DNA of 26,420 nucleotides from a virus. The stretch is taken from the IMG/VR virus record IMGVR_UViG_3300039112_000061, positions 1-26,420 of that record, one strand, 5' to 3'. Shown piece after piece: positions 6,036-26,400 of this stretch (positions within the stretch are counted from its first letter, which is position 1; every line of letters starts with the position of its first letter). Made by a program: the position numbers and the translations under genes. The notes below the pieces were generated by a model. It did no database searches, had not been told where the DNA came from, and saw only the letters and a program-made list of their open reading frames with translations.

Positions 6036-6135
6036 CGAACATCAAACTACTAAAGGGCAAGCGCCTGTTAGCGGTTTGACCGCTAGCCCCCCCATGTACG
6101 GGTCTCACAAGACCCCGAAAGGGGGCATTTTTATT
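6036..6135 (+). ncRNA. Putative structured antisense/small RNA ending in an intrinsic terminator
   Basis: No ORF is seen here. Downstream of the TATATTTG box lie a 7-bp hairpin TAGCGGT/ACCGCTA (6069-6085, loop TTG), a 6-bp hairpin GGGTCT/AGACCC (6100-6115, loop CACA), and CCCC-GAAA-GGGG (6113-6124) followed by GC and the T-rich ATTTTTATTTT. GCCCCC (6086-6091) can instead pair with GGGGGC (6121-6126) and enclose the second hairpin. The GNRA-type stem and the second hairpin share bases, so the two folds exclude each other. The T-tract gives plus-strand polarity. Function is unknown. It could act in cis on the portal-gpG transcript or be a free small RNA. Confidence 0.5.
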
Positions 6136-8581
6136 TTATAAGCTTCGACAACCTTGCTTTAGCCTTGTATCTTACCTTCGCATCAGCATTGATAACTTGC
6201 TTACGTTCTATAGTAATAAAACGCCCTTCCCAAAGCACCATTACCCGCTCCATTTTTTCCTTGTTTTTGAAGGCTTGTCGCAAGCCTTCAAAAAGTAAAT
6301 CAGCATCATAGGGTTTATATTCATCACTCAATGACACTACACATTCTGTAATGCGTTGGCTTCGCGCGCTATTGAACGCATTTACGAAAACCTTGAATTG
6401 GTTTTCGGTTTCATTGGTCTTCAAATCCGAAATCCTACCATTGATGGTTAGCTCAGGGTTTTTGCCGTCATTTTCCTTGTGTTGGCGTATTTCTACCTGC
6501 ATTCCATAGCGCGCCAGTACTTTGGCCGCTATTAGGTTCTCGGCCAAGTCGGCCTTGTAGGCTTGTTTGTGCTGCACCACAAACCCCGACTTTTTCACAT
6601 CTAAGTGAAAGTAGATAGGCTTATAGTTCTTATCTACGGCATACTTTGAAAAAGCCGCCACATTGCTGCGCATCGCAGAGGTAGTATAGCCAAAATACGG
6701 GTGTTCAAAGTCGAACGCCTTGCCGCTTTCGCCGGGGTTATGCCCCAAGCCGGGCGCAGGCTGCGGGATGCCTGCCGGCAAGCCGTCCGTAAGTGTGGCG
6801 CTTGCCGAGGACTGCCTTACCGTGCACCGGCAGTTGTAATCTATCGGCGGGAAATACCGCTGCCAAAAGTCATCGCGCAGCGGCTTCGTGATGCCATTGA
6901 GGCGGGCGTGGCTATCGCGCACATTGGCATCGCCTACGGTGCGCCAAGTAAGGTTAGGAAACAAATCTTCGCCCCTCACCAAGCGCTGCCATTGCACGGC
7001 TGCCTGCGCTGCCATCACAAAGGCCGTTTGTTCGGTTTCCAAGTGTTGGTTCATCGCCTGCATCACCTTTTTGGCCTCGGCTTGGCTCATCCCTTTGGTG
7101 CGTTCTACAAAAGTAGCGGCCTTGGCCAAGGCAAACTGGTAGGCATTTTCTCTAAATTTTTCGGTCAGGCTTTCGTTGGGCAAGCCCTGTTTAACCGGCG
7201 TATAAAAACGCTTTAAATACTGTTCAAACAGCGGATAAAAATCCTGTTCGCCCCATAGTTTCCCAAAGTCAAGGCGTAGCCTCAGGCGGTTGGGGCTTTT
7301 TTTTTTCAGCCCCTCCAGATAAGCAGCGTAGGCAACACTTGTCCCAGCTCCCCTCTTGAGAAGGGTTGGGGGTGTGTCCTTGTCGCCGTTGCTTGTGTCT
7401 GCGCCGTTGTTTGTGTCTGCTGGCAAGCCAGCTCCCCTCTTGAGAGGGGTTGGGGGTGTGTCCTTAGGGCTATGTGCCAACCCACTATCAGGCGACGGAG
7501 CAGCCTGTGGAGTGCGCGCTACAAAATACTCCCATTCAAAAACAGCCGCCTCGGGCAGCAAGCCCAATTTTTTCAGATGTGGCAACACCTTTTGGTTCAT
7601 TTGTTCTTCCACATAGCGCATATCGGCTTCCACATACCAGTCCAAGATACGCTCCTGAACCTCGGCGCTGCCCACAAAGCTCTTAGTGTCCGAGGTGGCC
7701 GTTTGGCCTACCAAGCACTTCGATATTTGCTCGTCGCAAAACTTAATCATCCTATCATACAGTTCGTGCGGGCTGCCGTTGCTTTTGGTATCTATGGCTG
7801 TCAGGTCTTCGTCCGGGTCCAGTATCACATAGGCATTGCGCCCAAACTCGCTCAGTGCTTTGTGGCGCTCTTGCAGGGCTTTGGTTTCGGTGATGGGTGT
7901 TTTCAGGCTTAGGAACGGCATCCCAAACAGTTCGGAGTGCCTGCTCCAGTCCGACACCGAAAACCGCTTATAAATGGCATATTGCGCCGCATAGGTCAGC
8001 AGCCCAAAATCTTCATCAGGGTTTACAAACACCAGCAGGTTCTCATAAGCCGCCCAAGGCGTGCCGGTCGAGAAATTGCTCACCACCAAGCTTTCCGTTT
8101 CGGGCACCAAGAAAACCGACGGCACCACATAAAAGCTGCCATCATCGGCCACTTCCATAGCGCTTGCCCAGTAGAGCAGGCTGTCCAAGACCACCCGCAC
8201 AGCTTTCTTAATCAAGCCCTTCGTTGGCTCGTTGGCTTCTATGCCCAAGCGCCAAGGTTCGGCCAGTGTGCCATTCAGGCGGGTTTGGCGTTGGGTTTTG
8301 ATTTGCCCGTCGAAGCTAATTTGCCGAATCACCTCCCACAACGAATCCTTGCGGTAGTAAGGCCCCGACACCGAGGCATCGACAGCCGCCTTCCAGTCGG
8401 CTATGTGTTTGTCGGCTGCAAACACGCGCGGGCTGTAGGCGTATGGCTTGCAGATGGCTGTTTGCACCTGCTTCGCCACTTCGAGGCGCTCGATGGCAGC
8501 CCTTAGTTTTGCTTCTTGTTGGGTGGCGGCGCTTTTCCAAGGCCAAAGCCCACCCCAGTTATTTGTCCACTTCATTGTCAT
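6131..8581 (-). CDS. Portal (gp29/DUF935)-MuF (gp30) fusion with C-terminal nuclease-like domain
   Basis: This 816-residue protein covers what Mu encodes as two proteins plus an extra domain. Residues 1-355 are portal-like (DUF935 type, with WRLGIEANEP, then NLLVFVNPDEDFG, then CDEQISKCLVGQT and ILDWYVEADMRYVEEQMNQ). Residues 356-415 are a linker holding two in-frame copies of the interspersed repeat, read as DTPPTPLKRGA and DTPPTLLKRGA. Residues 416-595 are the MuF minor-head domain, with its signature TVGDANVRDSHARLNG, then FPPIDYNCRC (574-586). Residues 640-800 form an alpha/beta domain with GKNPELTINGRISDLKT (706-722), which resembles the P-(D/E)...(D/E)xK core of nuclease toxins, followed by VVSLSDEY and VMVLWEG. 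The start is ATG 8581 or 8575. Its start lies 2 bases from the stop of the gp36-like gene. Confidence 0.85.
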   Translation of the reverse strand: MTMKWTNNWGGLWPWKSAATQQEAKLRAAIERLEVAKQVQTAICKPYAYSPRVFAADKHIADWKAAVDASVSGPYYRKDSLWEVIRQISFDGQIKTQRQTRLNGTLAEPWRLGIEANEPTKGLIKKAVRVVLDSLLYWASAMEVADDGSFYVVPSVFLVPETESLVVSNFSTGTPWAAYENLLVFVNPDEDFGLLTYAAQYAIYKRFSVSDWSRHSELFGMPFLSLKTPITETKALQERHKALSEFGRNAYVILDPDEDLTAIDTKSNGSPHELYDRMIKFCDEQISKCLVGQTATSDTKSFVGSAEVQERILDWYVEADMRYVEEQMNQKVLPHLKKLGLLPEAAVFEWEYFVARTPQAAPSPDSGLAHSPKDTPPTPLKRGAGLPADTNNGADTSNGDKDTPPTLLKRGAGTSVAYAAYLEGLKKKSPNRLRLRLDFGKLWGEQDFYPLFEQYLKRFYTPVKQGLPNESLTEKFRENAYQFALAKAATFVERTKGMSQAEAKKVMQAMNQHLETEQTAFVMAAQAAVQWQRLVRGEDLFPNLTWRTVGDANVRDSHARLNGITKPLRDDFWQRYFPPIDYNCRCTVRQSSASATLTDGLPAGIPQPAPGLGHNPGESGKAFDFEHPYFGYTTSAMRSNVAAFSKYAVDKNYKPIYFHLDVKKSGFVVQHKQAYKADLAENLIAAKVLARYGMQVEIRQHKENDGKNPELTINGRISDLKTNETENQFKVFVNAFNSARSQRITECVVSLSDEYKPYDADLLFEGLRQAFKNKEKMERVMVLWEGRFITIERKQVINADAKVRYKAKARLSKLIK
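7350..7377 (+). repeat. Interspersed repeat inside the portal-MuF gene (MuF-proximal copy)
   Basis: A 28-base copy with one change (GAGAAGGG). On the minus strand it is translated as DTPPTLLKRG, in frame. Confidence 0.93.
7434..7461 (+). repeat. Interspersed repeat inside the portal-MuF gene (portal-proximal copy)
   Basis: Full 28-base copy, read in frame on the minus strand as DTPPTPLKRG. It is 84 bases from the first copy, a multiple of three. The spacer reads as a low-complexity T/N/G/D linker (ADTNNGADTSNGDK). Confidence 0.93.
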
Positions 8582-15401: not shown

Positions 15402-15416
15402 TCTTTCTTTTTGCTG

Positions 15417-16643
15417 ATGAGACCACAAGTAAAAATAACCAACATTGCAGGCTCGCTTGGCGGCAGCCCGCCCACCAACGACGGGGTCTGCCTGTTGGTA
15501 CACAACGCCCCGACGGCCTACACCCACACCGAAACCGTGTTTACCAGCCTTGCCCAAGCCGAGCAAGCCGGCATCACGGAAGCCAACGATGCCACCCGAA
15601 GCTATTTGCTATGGGAGCACATCAAAGACTTCTTTACGGTCAACCCGCTTGGCGCAGAGTTACACTTACTACAAGTGCCTGCTACCACCACTTTTCAACA
15701 GTTGTTTACCGTGGGCCATAGCGCCAACACCCTACTGCAAAGCACTTTGGCCGCCAAGGCCGGAGTCATCAAGACATTGGGCGTTAGCTTAGTGCCTGCT
15801 TCCGAAACCCACACCACCTCCATTTCTTCCGATTTGCAGGCGGCCATTCCTTTGGCGCAAGCCTTTTGCGTAGCCGAATACAGCCGGTTGCGCCCCATCT
15901 CAGCCGTATTGGAAGGGCGTAAGTTTTCGGGCACGGCCTCGGCAGCCCTCGATTTGCGGGGCTTGGCTGCCGGTTATGTATCGGTGGTGGTGGCGCGCAA
16001 CCAAACCCGGGCTACAGCCTTGGGGGCGCTGGCTGCTAACTTTGCCGCCATTGGCCTCGCCTTGGGCAGCATTGCAGCCAACCACGTAGGCCGAAACATA
16101 GGCCGTGTAAAAAACGGCACGCTACCCGTACAGCAAGCCGCCTTCAGCGATGGCAGGCTACCATTCAAAGACATCGCCGACCAAGACCTAAACACGCTCA
16201 GCAACAAGGGCTATATCTTTATGGACCAATACCCCGAGGTGAGCGGGTGGTACTGGGTGGACGACCATACCTGCACCCTGCCCGACCGCAACGATGCCTA
16301 CTTGTCGCTCACACGCCCAGCCAACAAGGCTGCCCGCATTGCCATCCGCACTTATGTAGACAACCTGAAGGACGAGTTCCGGGTGGATGCTACCACCGGC
16401 AGGCTGCCCAATATCGTGGTGCAAACCCTGCAAAACGAGCTTTCAAACGCCATAGAAAACGAAATGATTAGCAACCCCGACCCGGCACGAGTACCCGAAA
16501 TATCGGCGGTTACCGTGCGCATAGACCCCAATCAGAACGTACTTGCCTCCAGCAAAATAGTAGCCCGTTTGCGCATCGTGCCCTTGGGCATCGGGCGCAT
16601 CATCGAAACCGAAGTAGAATTATACAACCCTGCCAACGCCTAA
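15417..16643 (+). CDS. Contractile tail sheath protein (gpL/DUF2586-like)
   Basis: This 408-residue protein begins MRPQVKITNIAGSLGG at ATG 15417; a TTG two codons earlier is less likely. It has the sheath plan: an N-terminal alpha-beta domain (VCLLVHNAPTAY, SYLLWEHIKDFF), a middle domain, and a conserved C-terminal domain with KGYIFMDQYPEVSGWYWVDDHTC, RTYVDNLKDEF and a final strand (RLRIVPLGIGRIIETEVEL). Sheath subunits contract to drive the tube through the envelope. Its presence makes this a myophage. The tail tube gene follows by 5 bases. Confidence 0.87.
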   Translation: MRPQVKITNIAGSLGGSPPTNDGVCLLVHNAPTAYTHTETVFTSLAQAEQAGITEANDATRSYLLWEHIKDFFTVNPLGAELHLLQVPATTTFQQLFTVGHSANTLLQSTLAAKAGVIKTLGVSLVPASETHTTSISSDLQAAIPLAQAFCVAEYSRLRPISAVLEGRKFSGTASAALDLRGLAAGYVSVVVARNQTRATALGALAANFAAIGLALGSIAANHVGRNIGRVKNGTLPVQQAAFSDGRLPFKDIADQDLNTLSNKGYIFMDQYPEVSGWYWVDDHTCTLPDRNDAYLSLTRPANKAARIAIRTYVDNLKDEFRVDATTGRLPNIVVQTLQNELSNAIENEMISNPDPARVPEISAVTVRIDPNQNVLASSKIVARLRIVPLGIGRIIETEVELYNPANA

Positions 16644-16648
16644 ATACT

Positions 16649-17065
16649 ATGAGACAATTTTCAGGAAAAGACTGTAAAGTAGCGATGCTCGGGCGAGAAA
16701 CCGCCCTCATCAGCATCACCTATGGCGCCAAGCAAGAAAAGCGCGACGTGTTTGTACTTGGCCAACCATCGGCTGTGGCCGAGGTGGTAGGCCGCAAAAT
16801 ATTTGAAGGCGAAATCGTGATGATACAATCCGAGTTCGAAGCAATGGTTAGGTCGTTGCCCGAAGGGCAAGATATTTTAGACATTGCCCCTTTCGACATC
16901 TTGGTACTTTATTTAGACGAAACCACCAATTTGGCCGTGGTCGATGTGCTGAAAAATTGCAGCTTCAGAGAGTATAGCAAGTCGATGAAAAACGAAGACG
17001 ATATGATGGAAGTCAGCCTACCCATCCGCATCGGCAGCATCCAATTAGGCTTGCGCCAAAACTAA
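16649..17065 (+). CDS. Tail tube protein
   Basis: This 138-residue protein is nearly all beta (CKVAMLGRETALISITYGA, KIFEGEIVMIQSEFEAMV, then MEVSLPIRIGSIQLGLRQN), with one helix (about 70-80). Size and position directly after the sheath gene identify it as the inner tube subunit, the counterpart of Mu gpM. Sequence alone gives moderate support. Confidence 0.8.
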   Translation: MRQFSGKDCKVAMLGRETALISITYGAKQEKRDVFVLGQPSAVAEVVGRKIFEGEIVMIQSEFEAMVRSLPEGQDILDIAPFDILVLYLDETTNLAVVDVLKNCSFREYSKSMKNEDDMMEVSLPIRIGSIQLGLRQN

Positions 17066-17091: not shown

Positions 17092-17439
17092 ATGAAAGAA
17101 GAATCGTTAGACAACCTTACCCAACCCACACCCGAACAAGTAGAGGCTTGGGTCAAACAATATGGCAGGCTCAAAAAGGCTACCATCAAAGATGCAGAAG
17201 GCGACAAAGCAGGCGAGGAAATGGTGTTTTATTTCAAAAAAATCAGCCTCGATGCCCTGCGCTTGGCCAACCAAGCCCTGACCCAAGACAAAGACAACAT
17301 CAAGTATGCCGAAATCATACTGGCCAACAGCATTGTCAATGGACTGAACTACCTGAAGGATGCCGACGTGTTCATCGCTTTGCTGCCCATTGCCGACCAG
17401 CTGCTTACCAACAAAATAGCAACGCTTGAAAAAAACTAA
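17092..17439 (+). CDS. Tail assembly chaperone, short form
   Basis: This 115-residue acidic, helical protein (MKEESLDNLTQPTPEQVEAW) lies between tube and tape measure genes, the invariable place of tail assembly chaperones (lambda G/GT, Mu gp41/gp42). It ends GAA AAA AAC TAA. The A AAA AAC heptamer (17430-17436) is in the correct phase for -1 frameshifting and leads to a longer product. The chaperone coats the tape measure protein during tail assembly. A strand-helix segment EEMVFYFKKISLDALRLANQAL is its most regular part. Confidence 0.8.
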   Translation: MKEESLDNLTQPTPEQVEAWVKQYGRLKKATIKDAEGDKAGEEMVFYFKKISLDALRLANQALTQDKDNIKYAEIILANSIVNGLNYLKDADVFIALLPIADQLLTNKIATLEKN

Positions 17440-17633
17440 AATCCGCAAAAATCACTGCCAAAACAGGGTTTTTGCGGAAAATAGACGCACAACTGATGTA
17501 CTACTACCGGTGGACACCAAGCCAAATCGACCGTTTGACCGAAGCCCAATGGGCTGAGGCTTGGCAAGCCTTGGCCTGGTGCAGAGAGGAAGAGCGAAAA
17601 GCTTCTGAAAAACAAAATAACCGAAAAGGATAA
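17092..17633 (+). CDS. Tail assembly chaperone, -1 frameshifted long form (180 aa)
   Basis: After a -1 shift at 17430-17436 the frame continues from CTA (17436-17438) without a stop to TAA at 17631-17633, adding 65 residues. The first 20 read LKSAKITAKTGFLRKIDAQL; the extension then runs MYYYRWTPSQIDRLTEAQW, WQALAWCREEE and a basic end. The extension is too regular (helical, tryptophan-rich) to be noise. It matches the T-domain idea of lambda G-T, which contacts the tape measure protein. The same frame also has an internal ATG at 17496 that could start a separate 45-residue protein if no shift occurs. Confidence 0.75.
17430..17478 (+). promoter_or_regulatory. Programmed -1 frameshift signal: slippery heptamer plus stem-loop
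   Basis: A AAA AAC lies at 17430-17436, its phase matching codons GAA AAA AAC. The zero-frame TAA stop follows at 17437-17439. Five bases after the heptamer a 10-bp perfect stem begins: TCCGCAAAAA (17442-17451) with TTTTTGCGGA (17469-17478), loop 17 bases. Heptamer, spacer and stem match known -1 frameshift sites. Confidence 0.8.
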
Positions 17634-17692: not shown

Positions 17693-17848
17693 TTAAACTT
17701 TGTCCTGATCTTCCAATGCCTCGCGGATGGCACGCTTCATTTTGTCTTGGTTTTGGCGCTCCCATTGGCCAAACCAAGCATCCTGAATCAGCCAAACCGG
17801 AATCATCAGCAAAAAAACGAAAATTAAAAACGTTAGTAGATTAAGCAT
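17693..17848 (-). CDS. Small membrane protein on the opposite strand, 51 aa
   Basis: The reading frame starts MLNLLTFLIFVFLLMIPVWL, a strong membrane helix, then a charged helix (WERQNQDKMKRAIREALEDQ). It lies against the tail operon, filling the 218-base gap between chaperone and tape measure genes, with its ATG 4 bases from the tape measure ATG. The layout and sensible composition suggest a real gene, perhaps a lysogeny-expressed 'moron'. A frame starting further upstream would run into the tape measure gene and is rejected. No promoter box is evident. Confidence 0.45.
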   Translation of the reverse strand: MLNLLTFLIFVFLLMIPVWLIQDAWFGQWERQNQDKMKRAIREALEDQDKV

Positions 17849-17851
17849 TAT

Positions 17852-19948
17852 ATGGCTTTTGAGTTTGAAATTAAGTTTGGACGCACCCTGCAACTGCTCA
17901 ACGCCGTGGGCGATGGGCTGACCAAGGTCTATGATAAAACGACCAAGGTAGTGGCAGGGTTTCAAAAGCCTATCGACTGGGACAAGCTCGGCAGGGTAGA
18001 AGCCCAAATCAACCATTTCACCCAAAACCTACAACGCCTCGGCGACGGCCTGATGGGGGTGTTGCAACCCGGCATTAGCTTCGAGCAGAAAATGGCCGAG
18101 CTAAAAGCCTCGACCGGCATCACCAACAAAGCCCTCGTAGAAATAGGCAAATCGGCACGCGGCTTGGCCAAAGAGTTTGGCCTTTCGGCTGACGACATCA
18201 GCGACACGTACCTCCAGTTGCTTTCTAAGTTGAGCCCCGAACTGGCCAAAACCAAGGAAGGACAGCAGGCTTTGGCGCAAATGACCCGCACTACTGCTAT
18301 GCTTAGCAAAGGGATGGGGGGCGACATCAAGGGCGCTACCGAAGCCCTTACTACGATGATGAACGCCTACAACATCGACATCAGCAAGCCCGAACAAGCC
18401 GCCAAAGCGATGGCCACCATTGGCGATATGCTCACCGCTTCGTTCAAAGATGGCGCGGTAGATGTAGGCGATTTGGCCAATTCGATGAAAGCCCTCGGCG
18501 CAACCGGATATGCGGCCAACGTATCGCTTTCCGAAACCTTGGGCACGCTTCAGGTGATTGGCCAAAAAGGGGCAAAGATGGGGGCCGAGGGCGGGGTGGC
18601 TTTCCGCAACGCCTTGGCGCAGCTTGCTCAAGGCGAACTAATGCCCGAAAAAACCCTGAAGCTCTTGAAAGGCGCAGATGTTAAAATAAGCCAACTGACC
18701 GACAAAACCAAAACCTTTGCCGAGCGTATGGCAGCCCTGAAGCCCATCGCCAAAAACGATGCGCTAATGGGCGAGTTCTTCGGCAAAGAAAACGTGGTGG
18801 CGGGGCAGGCCATCTTACAAAACTTAGACCTCATCAAACAATATACCGCCAGTGCGCAAAACGCCCAAGGGGCTAATGCAGCCTTTGCAAGCGGGGTGAT
18901 GAACACCACCCAAGGCGCATTAGACAGGATGAAGGCCAATTTTACCGACCTTTCGTTGTCGATGTACGAAAGCCTAAAGCCCTATGTGCCAATGATTGCG
19001 CTCAGCTCGCAAATAGCTGTGGGCATAGGAGCCGTAGCGCCACTGTTTGCCACGGTGGGTACGCTGATGCGCGCCGGTGCGGGCTATGCTTTGCAGTATG
19101 GCTTAGGACTAACCGCCGTCAACGGCCAGTTGGCCTTTCAGCAGCGCAGTTTGGTAGGCGTAACCTTGGGCTTGTTCCGCTACATCGGGGCGATGGCCGT
19201 TAGTGGGGTGGGGGCATTGGGTTCTTTCTTGGTATCGATGGGCGCGGCCACCGTAGGCCAGTGGCTGCTCAATGCGGCGATGTATGCCAACCCCATCGGC
19301 TTGGTCATTGTGGGGGTAGCCGCTTTGGGGGGCTTGCTCTGGGCGCTCTCTTCCGCATTCGGAGGGGTAGGCAATGCCCTCAGCAAAATGTGGGAGTTTG
19401 TCAAAAACTATAACCCCTTCACCCTCATTGCCAAAACCATCGATTGGATGTTGGGCAGCAACCTCACCAAACAGTTGGGCGGGTTTTTCAACTGGGTAGA
19501 AGAAAAGATGCGTTGGCTGTGGGACAAAGTAAGCGGTTTAGGCGAAATGATTGGCTTGGTAAGTGGCAGTGCCAACGAAACCGCTACCGGTGCGCCCAAG
19601 TTTATGCAAACCATCATCGACAAGGTGGTCCCTAAAAAGGCCAAAACCAAGGAAGCCTCCGGTGAAGGGAGCAATAAAACCACCGATATTTTCGGAGGCG
19701 GTTCAGAAATGAGCAAGCTGCCTACCTTGGCAGGCGACAAAAAGGCCGATGCCAATGTGTCGGCAGGCTTGGCAGCCGTGGCCGGAGGCGGACAAAAGCA
19801 AACCAACATTACCATCAACCTCCAGAAGCTGCAAGACAAAACCGAAATACACACTACGAATTTTGACCAAGGCAGCGAACAGGCCGAGCGCAAAATCATC
19901 GAACTGATGATGCGAGTGCTCAATAGCACCTATCAATATACTACTTAA
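17852..19948 (+). CDS. Tail tape measure protein
   Basis: This 698-residue protein has the TP901-type tape measure core. It includes FEQKMAELKASTGITN (about 77-92), IGKSARGLAKEFGLSADDISDTY (about 97-119), then the typical ALTTMMNAYNIDISKPEQAAKAM and DLANSMKALGATGYAANVSLSETLGTL segments, to about residue 345. A hydrophobic section follows (about 383-505, several membrane-like helices such as VSGVGALGSFLVSMGAATVG), then a hydrophilic linker and a beta/helix end. The protein sets tail length and plugs the tube. At about 1.5 angstrom per residue (known rule) the tail would be near 100 nm. Confidence 0.9.
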   Translation: MAFEFEIKFGRTLQLLNAVGDGLTKVYDKTTKVVAGFQKPIDWDKLGRVEAQINHFTQNLQRLGDGLMGVLQPGISFEQKMAELKASTGITNKALVEIGKSARGLAKEFGLSADDISDTYLQLLSKLSPELAKTKEGQQALAQMTRTTAMLSKGMGGDIKGATEALTTMMNAYNIDISKPEQAAKAMATIGDMLTASFKDGAVDVGDLANSMKALGATGYAANVSLSETLGTLQVIGQKGAKMGAEGGVAFRNALAQLAQGELMPEKTLKLLKGADVKISQLTDKTKTFAERMAALKPIAKNDALMGEFFGKENVVAGQAILQNLDLIKQYTASAQNAQGANAAFASGVMNTTQGALDRMKANFTDLSLSMYESLKPYVPMIALSSQIAVGIGAVAPLFATVGTLMRAGAGYALQYGLGLTAVNGQLAFQQRSLVGVTLGLFRYIGAMAVSGVGALGSFLVSMGAATVGQWLLNAAMYANPIGLVIVGVAALGGLLWALSSAFGGVGNALSKMWEFVKNYNPFTLIAKTIDWMLGSNLTKQLGGFFNWVEEKMRWLWDKVSGLGEMIGLVSGSANETATGAPKFMQTIIDKVVPKKAKTKEASGEGSNKTTDIFGGGSEMSKLPTLAGDKKADANVSAGLAAVAGGGQKQTNITINLQKLQDKTEIHTTNFDQGSEQAERKIIELMMRVLNSTYQYTT

Positions 19949-25212: not shown

Positions 25213-26214
25213 TCAATCAGGATTATACGCCCAGCGCAAATAGGTAGCGCCCCACACAAATCCTGCACCAAAGGCAGCTAAGAGGATGTTTTGTCCTTTG
25301 CGGAAATCATTTTCCCACTCCCAAAGACACAAAGGAATGGTGGCAGCGGTGGTGTTGCCATATTTTTGGATGTTGATGGTAACTTTTTCTAAAGGGATAT
25401 TGGTCATTTGAGCCGTCGCTTCTATGATGCGTAAGTTGGCTTGGTGTGGCACAAGGTAGTCGATGTCTTGGCTTGCCAATTGGTTTCTTTGCAAAATCTC
25501 CTGCGATACCGAAGCCATCCCTTGTACGGCATATTTGAAAACCTTTTTGCCATCTTGAAAAAAATAATGCTCTTTGTTGGCTATCGTTTCGAGGCTTGCC
25601 GGGCGAGCAGAACCTCCCGCCTTGAGGTAAATAAGGTCTTTGCCTACGGGATCGCAGCGCAAAATCGTATCAACGATGCCGTCTTCGTCCAGACTTGGCT
25701 CTAACAAAACAGCGGCGGCGGCATCGCCAAAAAGAATACAACTGCCGCGGTCTTCGTAGTCGGTAATGCTGCTCATTTTGTCGGCGCCCACTACGATTAC
25801 TTTCTTGTATCGCCCCGAGCGGATATAGTTGCAGCCGGTTTCTAAGGCATATAAAAAACCCGCACAGGCCGAAAGCATATCGAACGCCAGCGCTTTGCGT
25901 GCGCCTATCCGGTCGCAAATAAGGTTGGCCGTATTGGGAAACATCATATCGGGGGTGATGGTCGCACAAATAATGACCTCTATTTCGTCAGGCTCGATGC
26001 CTTTTTTTTCCAGCAGATTTTGCACTGCATTGGCAGCCATAAAGGAAGTTCCTAAATCTTTGCCTTTCAATATGCGGCGCTCTTCAATACCAGTGCGCGA
26101 GGTAATCCAATCGTGCGAAGTGTTGACCATTTCGGCCAAATTTTCATTGGTAAGGCGGTCAGGAGGCAGCCAAGCTCCTACACCTGTAATGCAAGGGTAA
26201 TTTTGATTATTCAT
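25213..26214 (-). CDS. fabH: 3-oxoacyl-[acyl-carrier-protein] synthase III (host)
   Basis: FabH starts fatty acid synthesis by condensing acetyl-CoA (or a branched acyl-CoA) with malonyl-ACP. The protein is 333 residues from ATG 26214 (MNNQNYPCITGVGAWLPPDR), the usual length. A longer frame to 26277 adds a hydrophobic stretch not seen in the family. The catalytic Cys is in LSACAGFLYALETG, His in LVPHQANLRIIEA and Asn in YGNTTAATIPL. Motifs ITSRTGIEERR and GDAAAAVLLEP are also typical. This is ordinary chromosomal DNA and marks the flank of the prophage. Regulation is not visible, though an AT-rich leader lies upstream. Confidence 0.95.
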   Translation of the reverse strand: MNNQNYPCITGVGAWLPPDRLTNENLAEMVNTSHDWITSRTGIEERRILKGKDLGTSFMAANAVQNLLEKKGIEPDEIEVIICATITPDMMFPNTANLICDRIGARKALAFDMLSACAGFLYALETGCNYIRSGRYKKVIVVGADKMSSITDYEDRGSCILFGDAAAAVLLEPSLDEDGIVDTILRCDPVGKDLIYLKAGGSARPASLETIANKEHYFFQDGKKVFKYAVQGMASVSQEILQRNQLASQDIDYLVPHQANLRIIEATAQMTNIPLEKVTINIQKYGNTTAATIPLCLWEWENDFRKGQNILLAAFGAGFVWGATYLRWAYNPD

Positions 26215-26400
26215 ACATAAAATGACTAAGAGTGTAATTACTATACTAAATGTATGAACTTTGGTCGATATTTCCAAAAATGACTATTGGTTATATATAA
26301 AAAATATTGTTGCATTTTCTTCCAAGGTGTGTTTTGGAGAACTATTCAAGCAGATTTTATTAAGAAGTTTACAGGTTGTGTCAACGATATTTCCGCCAAC

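Follow-up and report, generated by a model that had tools for sequence, protein, structure and literature searches.

A putative -1 ribosomal frameshift site in the tail chaperone gene of a Mu-like phage and its relatives

The window analysed here is the complete stretch of 26,420 nucleotides of an IMG/VR virus record (IMGVR_UViG_3300039112_000061), which has Mu-like head genes and comes without a host genome. Between positions 15411 and 19948 the order of genes is sheath, tube, chaperone and tape measure, which places the putative chaperone gene between those for the tube and the tape measure. The features of this region are:

15411..16643, plus strand: tail sheath (DUF2586; PF10758, E 1.2e-40; phrog_907 tail sheath)
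16649..17065, plus strand: probable tail tube protein (phrog_4579 tail protein, E 7.7e-7; position after the sheath)
17092..17439, plus strand: putative chaperone ORF, short G-like product of 115 aa, 3' end CTT GAA AAA AAC TAA
17427..17429, plus strand: TGA of the -1 frame, which limits the overlap to the heptamer
17430..17436, plus strand: slippery heptamer A_AAA_AAC, in phase (the same in L002, L005 and L141)
17430..17633, plus strand: ORF in the -1 frame, encoding a T-like C-terminal extension (65 codons past the heptamer, TAA at 17631-17633)
17437..17439, plus strand: zero-frame stop codon TAA, abutting the heptamer
17442..17453, plus strand: 5' arm of a hairpin (z -5.4; two compensatory pairs among relatives)
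17467..17478, plus strand: 3' arm of the same hairpin (same z and compensatory pairs)
17496..17498, plus strand: ATG within the -1 frame, which might act as a start of its own (45 codons)
17852..19948, plus strand: tail tape measure protein (phrog_28, E 2.3e-57; PF10145, E 9.5e-19)

The ORF at 17092..17439 was regarded as a putative tail assembly chaperone. Its product matches phrog_19076 (E 9.7e-8), a family of unnamed function that is also matched by 40 of 42 chaperones of relatives, and none of the named chaperone family models matched its sequence. An AlphaFold model of the short product (pLDDT 79, built from 4 sequences) resembles 3fgx (Z 9.7, rmsd 2.6, 91 residues aligned), YqbN 3klu (Z 5.7, rmsd 4.8, 85 aligned) and, weakly, the HK97 tail assembly chaperone 2ob9 (Z 5.4, rmsd 3.5, 80 aligned). 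The predicted fold is consistent with a tail chaperone, a weak indication when taken alone. The best match of the neighbouring tube ORF (16649..17065) is phrog_9206, which is named major head protein.

The zero and -1 frames overlap at 17430-17439 only, and an in-phase X_XXY_YYZ heptamer (17430-17436) is present inside this overlap. Because the -1 frame has a TGA at 17427-17429, the heptamer is the only spot where a -1 shift can join the two frames. A first-pass annotation, made from the sequence alone, had described an in-phase A_AAA_AAC followed directly by TAA and an open -1 frame of 65 codons ending at 17633, and each of these elements was found as described. It had also called the site near-textbook. 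This view does not hold for a bacterium, since E. coli ribosomes slip far less on A_AAA_AAC than on A_AAA_AAG (PMC5009743, a review). AAAAAACTAA alone is weak evidence for a frameshift site, with one match counted against 0.23 expected by chance.

Five nucleotides past the heptamer lies the perfect 10-bp stem that the first-pass annotation had noticed, formed by UCCGCAAAAA/UUUUUGCGGA (17442-17451 / 17469-17478). The stem lengthens to 12 bp (17442-17453 / 17467-17478) plus an inner CUG/CAG. The hairpin has a minimum free energy of -19.8 kcal/mol and a z-score of -5.4, and none of 200 shuffled sequences was equally stable. The hairpins of three close relatives from separate assemblies (L002, L005 and L141) have z-scores of -3.3 to -4.7, and RNAalifold recovers the stem unaided from these sequences and the window. 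Two stem pairs are changed on both sides with pairing kept (C-G to U-A and C-G to A-U), which may be taken as modest covariation evidence from four sequences. Across the family, the mean z-score of downstream stems was -1.23, versus -0.05 and -0.19 for control windows (p-values of 0.005 and 0.03, which are indicative only because the sequences are related). Such stems are strong in about a quarter of the family loci and absent from many. The expectation that relatives keep both heptamer and stem was thus borne out for the heptamer (39 of 43 loci, see below), and for the stem in the close clade and some other loci, though not in all. No match was obtained in Rfam.

The hairpin might serve another purpose, as a terminator or as a signal on the antisense strand, in which case the heptamer alone would matter for frameshifting. 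The minus strand indeed has TTTTAGTTTTTTT after the hairpin, and the frequent absence of a strong stem among relatives would agree with such a role. However, a terminator scan does not call the hairpin, and both its distance of 5 nt from the heptamer and its preservation among the close relatives are in keeping with a stimulator of frameshifting. We therefore regard a different role as unlikely and the hairpin as a candidate stimulatory structure.

The close relatives are informative about how the -1 frame is read. The L002 sheath is 71% identical to that of the window, and the chaperones of L002, L005 and L141 share 55-67% identity with the window chaperone. All three have AAAAAACTAA at the same position, with the same abutting stop, a hairpin and a homologous -1 frame protein. 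Beyond G473 and G461, no further close relatives were found in the host family of L141. The -1 ORF could, in principle, be a separate small gene translated by reinitiation or coupling, once the chaperone stop has been passed, from the ATG at 17496 (45 aa) or a TTG at 17472, the heptamer being incidental. An ATG is present in the extensions of the window, L005, L141 and many relatives, and the depositors of fF4 and lotta8-2 annotate a small separate ORF at this place. However, the -1 frame protein is conserved 5' of the ATG, back to the slip site, and the heptamers are in phase and clustered at the gene end. In addition, the extensions of L002, L013, L017, L153, L162 and L174 have no ATG. Identical synonymous codons were found in 82 of 102 testable pairs for extension codons 1-22, as compared to 63 of 122 past codon 22 and 135 of 276 in the chaperone, a sign of synonymous constraint that runs from the heptamer to codon 22. 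For codons 14-22, which precede the ATG at 17496, all changes fall at third positions of the -1 frame. This finding and the absence of an ATG from L002 indicate that -1 frame translation of the extension begins at the slip site, and not solely at an internal start. A separate gene is accordingly very improbable; a minor additional internal start may exist besides reading from the slip site. The model of the extension is helical (pLDDT 84), and a search for a clear PDB relative returned none, the best match having a Z of 3.5.

Since the short chaperone as a query found no relative in viral contigs or phage records, relatives were reached through the sheath and the tape measure, the majority of them via the DUF2586-type sheath. 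In total, 49 tail modules were compared, originating from the window, cultured Winoviridae (fF4, lotta8-2, Peternella_1 and FPSV-S27), gut phage scaffolds, IMG/VR contigs and Bacteroidota genomes. Three modules were excluded: L007, another tail module with an unrelated chaperone; L142, in which the tail genes beyond the sheath are disrupted; and L146, which yielded no chaperone ORF. L004 was left uncounted as near-identical to L003.

A homologous -1 extension follows the chaperone in 43 of the 49 modules, and 40 of these extensions were aligned. The first-pass annotation had proposed that a -1 shift yields a short and a long chaperone, and had named, as an observation that would speak against it, related phages in which the heptamer is absent or the -1 frame is not open. 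The proposal is supported: an in-phase X_XXY_YYZ heptamer was found in 39 of the 43 loci with an extension, 3-27 nt before the end of the stop codon, and the close relatives keep the stem. Eight heptamer types occur in the family, AAAAAAG being the commonest (20 loci), followed by AAAAAAC (9), GGGAAAG (3) and AAAAAAT (3); GGGAAAC, AAAAAAA, AAATTTG and AAATTTT were found once each. When similar extensions were merged, the heptamer was present in 31 of 35. As a control, 338 other ORFs of these loci were examined, and both a heptamer at most 30 nt from the stop and a -1 extension of 100 nt or longer were present in only 10. The joint pattern of a heptamer near the stop and a -1 extension is not a product of chance. 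The loci L165-L169, which form one clade, have neither the -1 domain nor the heptamer, and were set aside together with L164, where a heptamer is likewise lacking and the -1 ORF is unrelated and does not contain the motif. No canonical heptamer was found in four extension-bearing loci (L015, L016, L158 and L174). L015 and L174 contain the weaker runs GGAAAAG and GGGGGAA, respectively, which, going by the motif names, fit the twofour and fivetwo motifs of PRFect (PMC10885494).

The tape measure gene has been moved in part of the family, as the annotated copy of fF4 lies in an operon on the opposite strand. No tape-measure-sized ORF follows the extension in L011, L148, L149, L152, L153, L158, L161, L162, L174 and L176. 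In L165-L169 the sheath, tube and chaperone are present and unrelated genes follow the chaperone; these loci may represent a decayed or domesticated tail module. In the window, the gap that separates the -1 extension from the tape measure contains a small membrane-like ORF of 51 aa on the minus strand (17693-17848). In L141 and L005, the minus strand of this gap also reads as a similar hydrophobic sequence; L002 has no gap there.

The survey also bears on the possibility that the fusion protein is made from an edited mRNA, after slippage of RNA polymerase on the A7 run has added one A. The window does contain seven consecutive A residues, and one inserted A gives the same frame. However, such slippage is unlikely on the A6G, GGGAAAG, GGGAAAC and AAATTTG sequences of relatives, in which the X_XXY_YYZ phase is nevertheless kept, and the conserved downstream hairpin fits stimulation of ribosomes. 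We thus give polymerase slippage hardly any weight. That a homopolymer error in sequencing or assembly split one gene, as the A7 run at the junction might suggest, is practically ruled out by the same frame relation in 43 loci from separate assemblies, cultured phages included.

The stop codon abuts the heptamer in 13 loci and is separated from it by one sense codon in 22, so that at most one sense codon lies between them in 35 of 39 loci; nearness of the stop is thus conserved as a trait of the family. A short overlap of the frames does not account for this closeness, because the stop is equally close in 13 of the 16 heptamer loci whose frames overlap by at least 40 nt (40-330 nt). It may reflect pausing, or merely the removal of useless codons past the site. 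In pea enation mosaic virus, a stop codon 3 nt past the shift site has a strong effect (PMC5009743). The resemblance to the window lies in the stop near the heptamer; the difference is that this is a plant RNA virus decoded by eukaryotic ribosomes. It is conceivable, if rather doubtful, that the stop codon is a working part of the signal and that pausing at termination helps to set the ratio of short to long product and to offset the weak A_AAA_AAC.

Altogether, we interpret the locus as a -1 programmed ribosomal frameshift of the lambda G/GT type, with a probability of roughly 0.93. Most ribosomes would read AAA AAC and stop at TAA, releasing the 115-aa chaperone. A minority would be delayed by the hairpin, which lies 5 nt further on, and perhaps also by the stop codon next for the A site; on A_AAA_AAC these ribosomes would move back by one base and continue for another 65 codons. 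The long product would then carry a small helical T-like domain at the end of the chaperone. In analogy with lambda, many copies of the short form would bind the tape measure, and the T-like domain of the long form would recruit the tube subunit. That ribosomes slip, how often they do so and what the two products do is our inference, while the anatomy of the sequence and the conservation of site, stem and -1 protein are directly observed. The frameshift reading is supported by the in-phase heptamer that exactly fills the frame overlap, by the turnover of the heptamer type while the phase stays, and by the lack of a heptamer in the five loci without the extension. It is weakened by the poor performance of A_AAA_AAC in E. 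coli (PMC5009743), by the four extension loci without a canonical heptamer and the many without a stable stem, and by the absence of a sequence match to any named chaperone family. The poor heptamer may be offset by the strong hairpin together with the stop directly behind it.

Lambda G/GT is produced by a -1 frameshift at G_GGA_AAG. The window resembles lambda in its gene order, in the short and the -1 extended product, and in the location of the heptamer towards the 3' end of the chaperone gene, and the lambda heptamer GGGAAAG is also used by the relatives L011, L143 and L145. In contrast to lambda, the window has A_AAA_AAC, an abutting stop, a strong hairpin and no sequence match to a named chaperone, and it represents a contractile-tail Mu-like phage of Bacteroidota. 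In lambda, the short and long forms are made at 30:1, the short form acting on the tape measure and the fused domain on the tube protein (PMC5009743). Mu itself is similar in having a sheath, tube, chaperone and tape measure, but its tail chaperone frameshift is -2 (PMC5009743), whereas the extension is in the -1 frame in 43 of 43 loci here. The haloarchaeal tailed viruses HCTV-1, -2 and -5 share the g-t arrangement; HCTV-2 uses A_AAA_AAC and HCTV-1 uses G_GGA_AAC (PMC5009743), heptamers that both occur in the present family. Their hosts, in contrast to those of the present family, are archaea.

The window sheath is approximately 27-28% identical to those of fF4, pippi/lotta and Peternella, and 36% identical over part of the sheath of the FPSV phages. 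The gene order agrees as well. Winoviridae are Mu-like phages of Flavobacteriia with a common set of core genes (protease, capsid, sheath, protein D and portal). The locus is best read as a frameshift system of Winoviridae-like phages of Bacteroidota. Frameshifted tail chaperones have long been known; the members described here are new. None of the related phage records examined carries a frameshift annotation, and no report of a tail-chaperone frameshift was found in the part of the literature covered on Winoviridae, P. gingivalis phages and Hankyphage. Our findings suggest a function for phrog_19076, and they account for the adjoining ORF, which in annotations of Bacteroidota phages is either overlooked or entered as a hypothetical gene of its own. 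Little was found in the literature searched on the rules of frameshifting on Bacteroidota ribosomes. With eight heptamer types in one gene family, a hairpin in some loci but not in others, and a stop that either abuts the heptamer or follows one codon later, the family provides a natural set for measuring these rules.

Several further observations concern the window and its relatives. A fabH gene lies at the edge of the window (25213-26277, minus strand); its nearest matches are from Bacteroidota, a Cytophagales MAG coming first at 65%, and it is probably host flank of a prophage. The large genomes G440 and G491 (L113, L115, L132, L133 and L135-L140) contain four and six DUF2586 sheath modules, respectively. 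Several of these modules closely resemble each other, a pattern that transposable phages might produce as they multiply. Lastly, an 816-aa ORF of the window (6131-8581, minus strand) combines Mu portal and Mu F domains and has at its C-terminus a weak, below cut-off match to a CdiA_C-like domain (PF18451, E 1.4e-3), so that it perhaps carries a MuF-linked polymorphic toxin domain.
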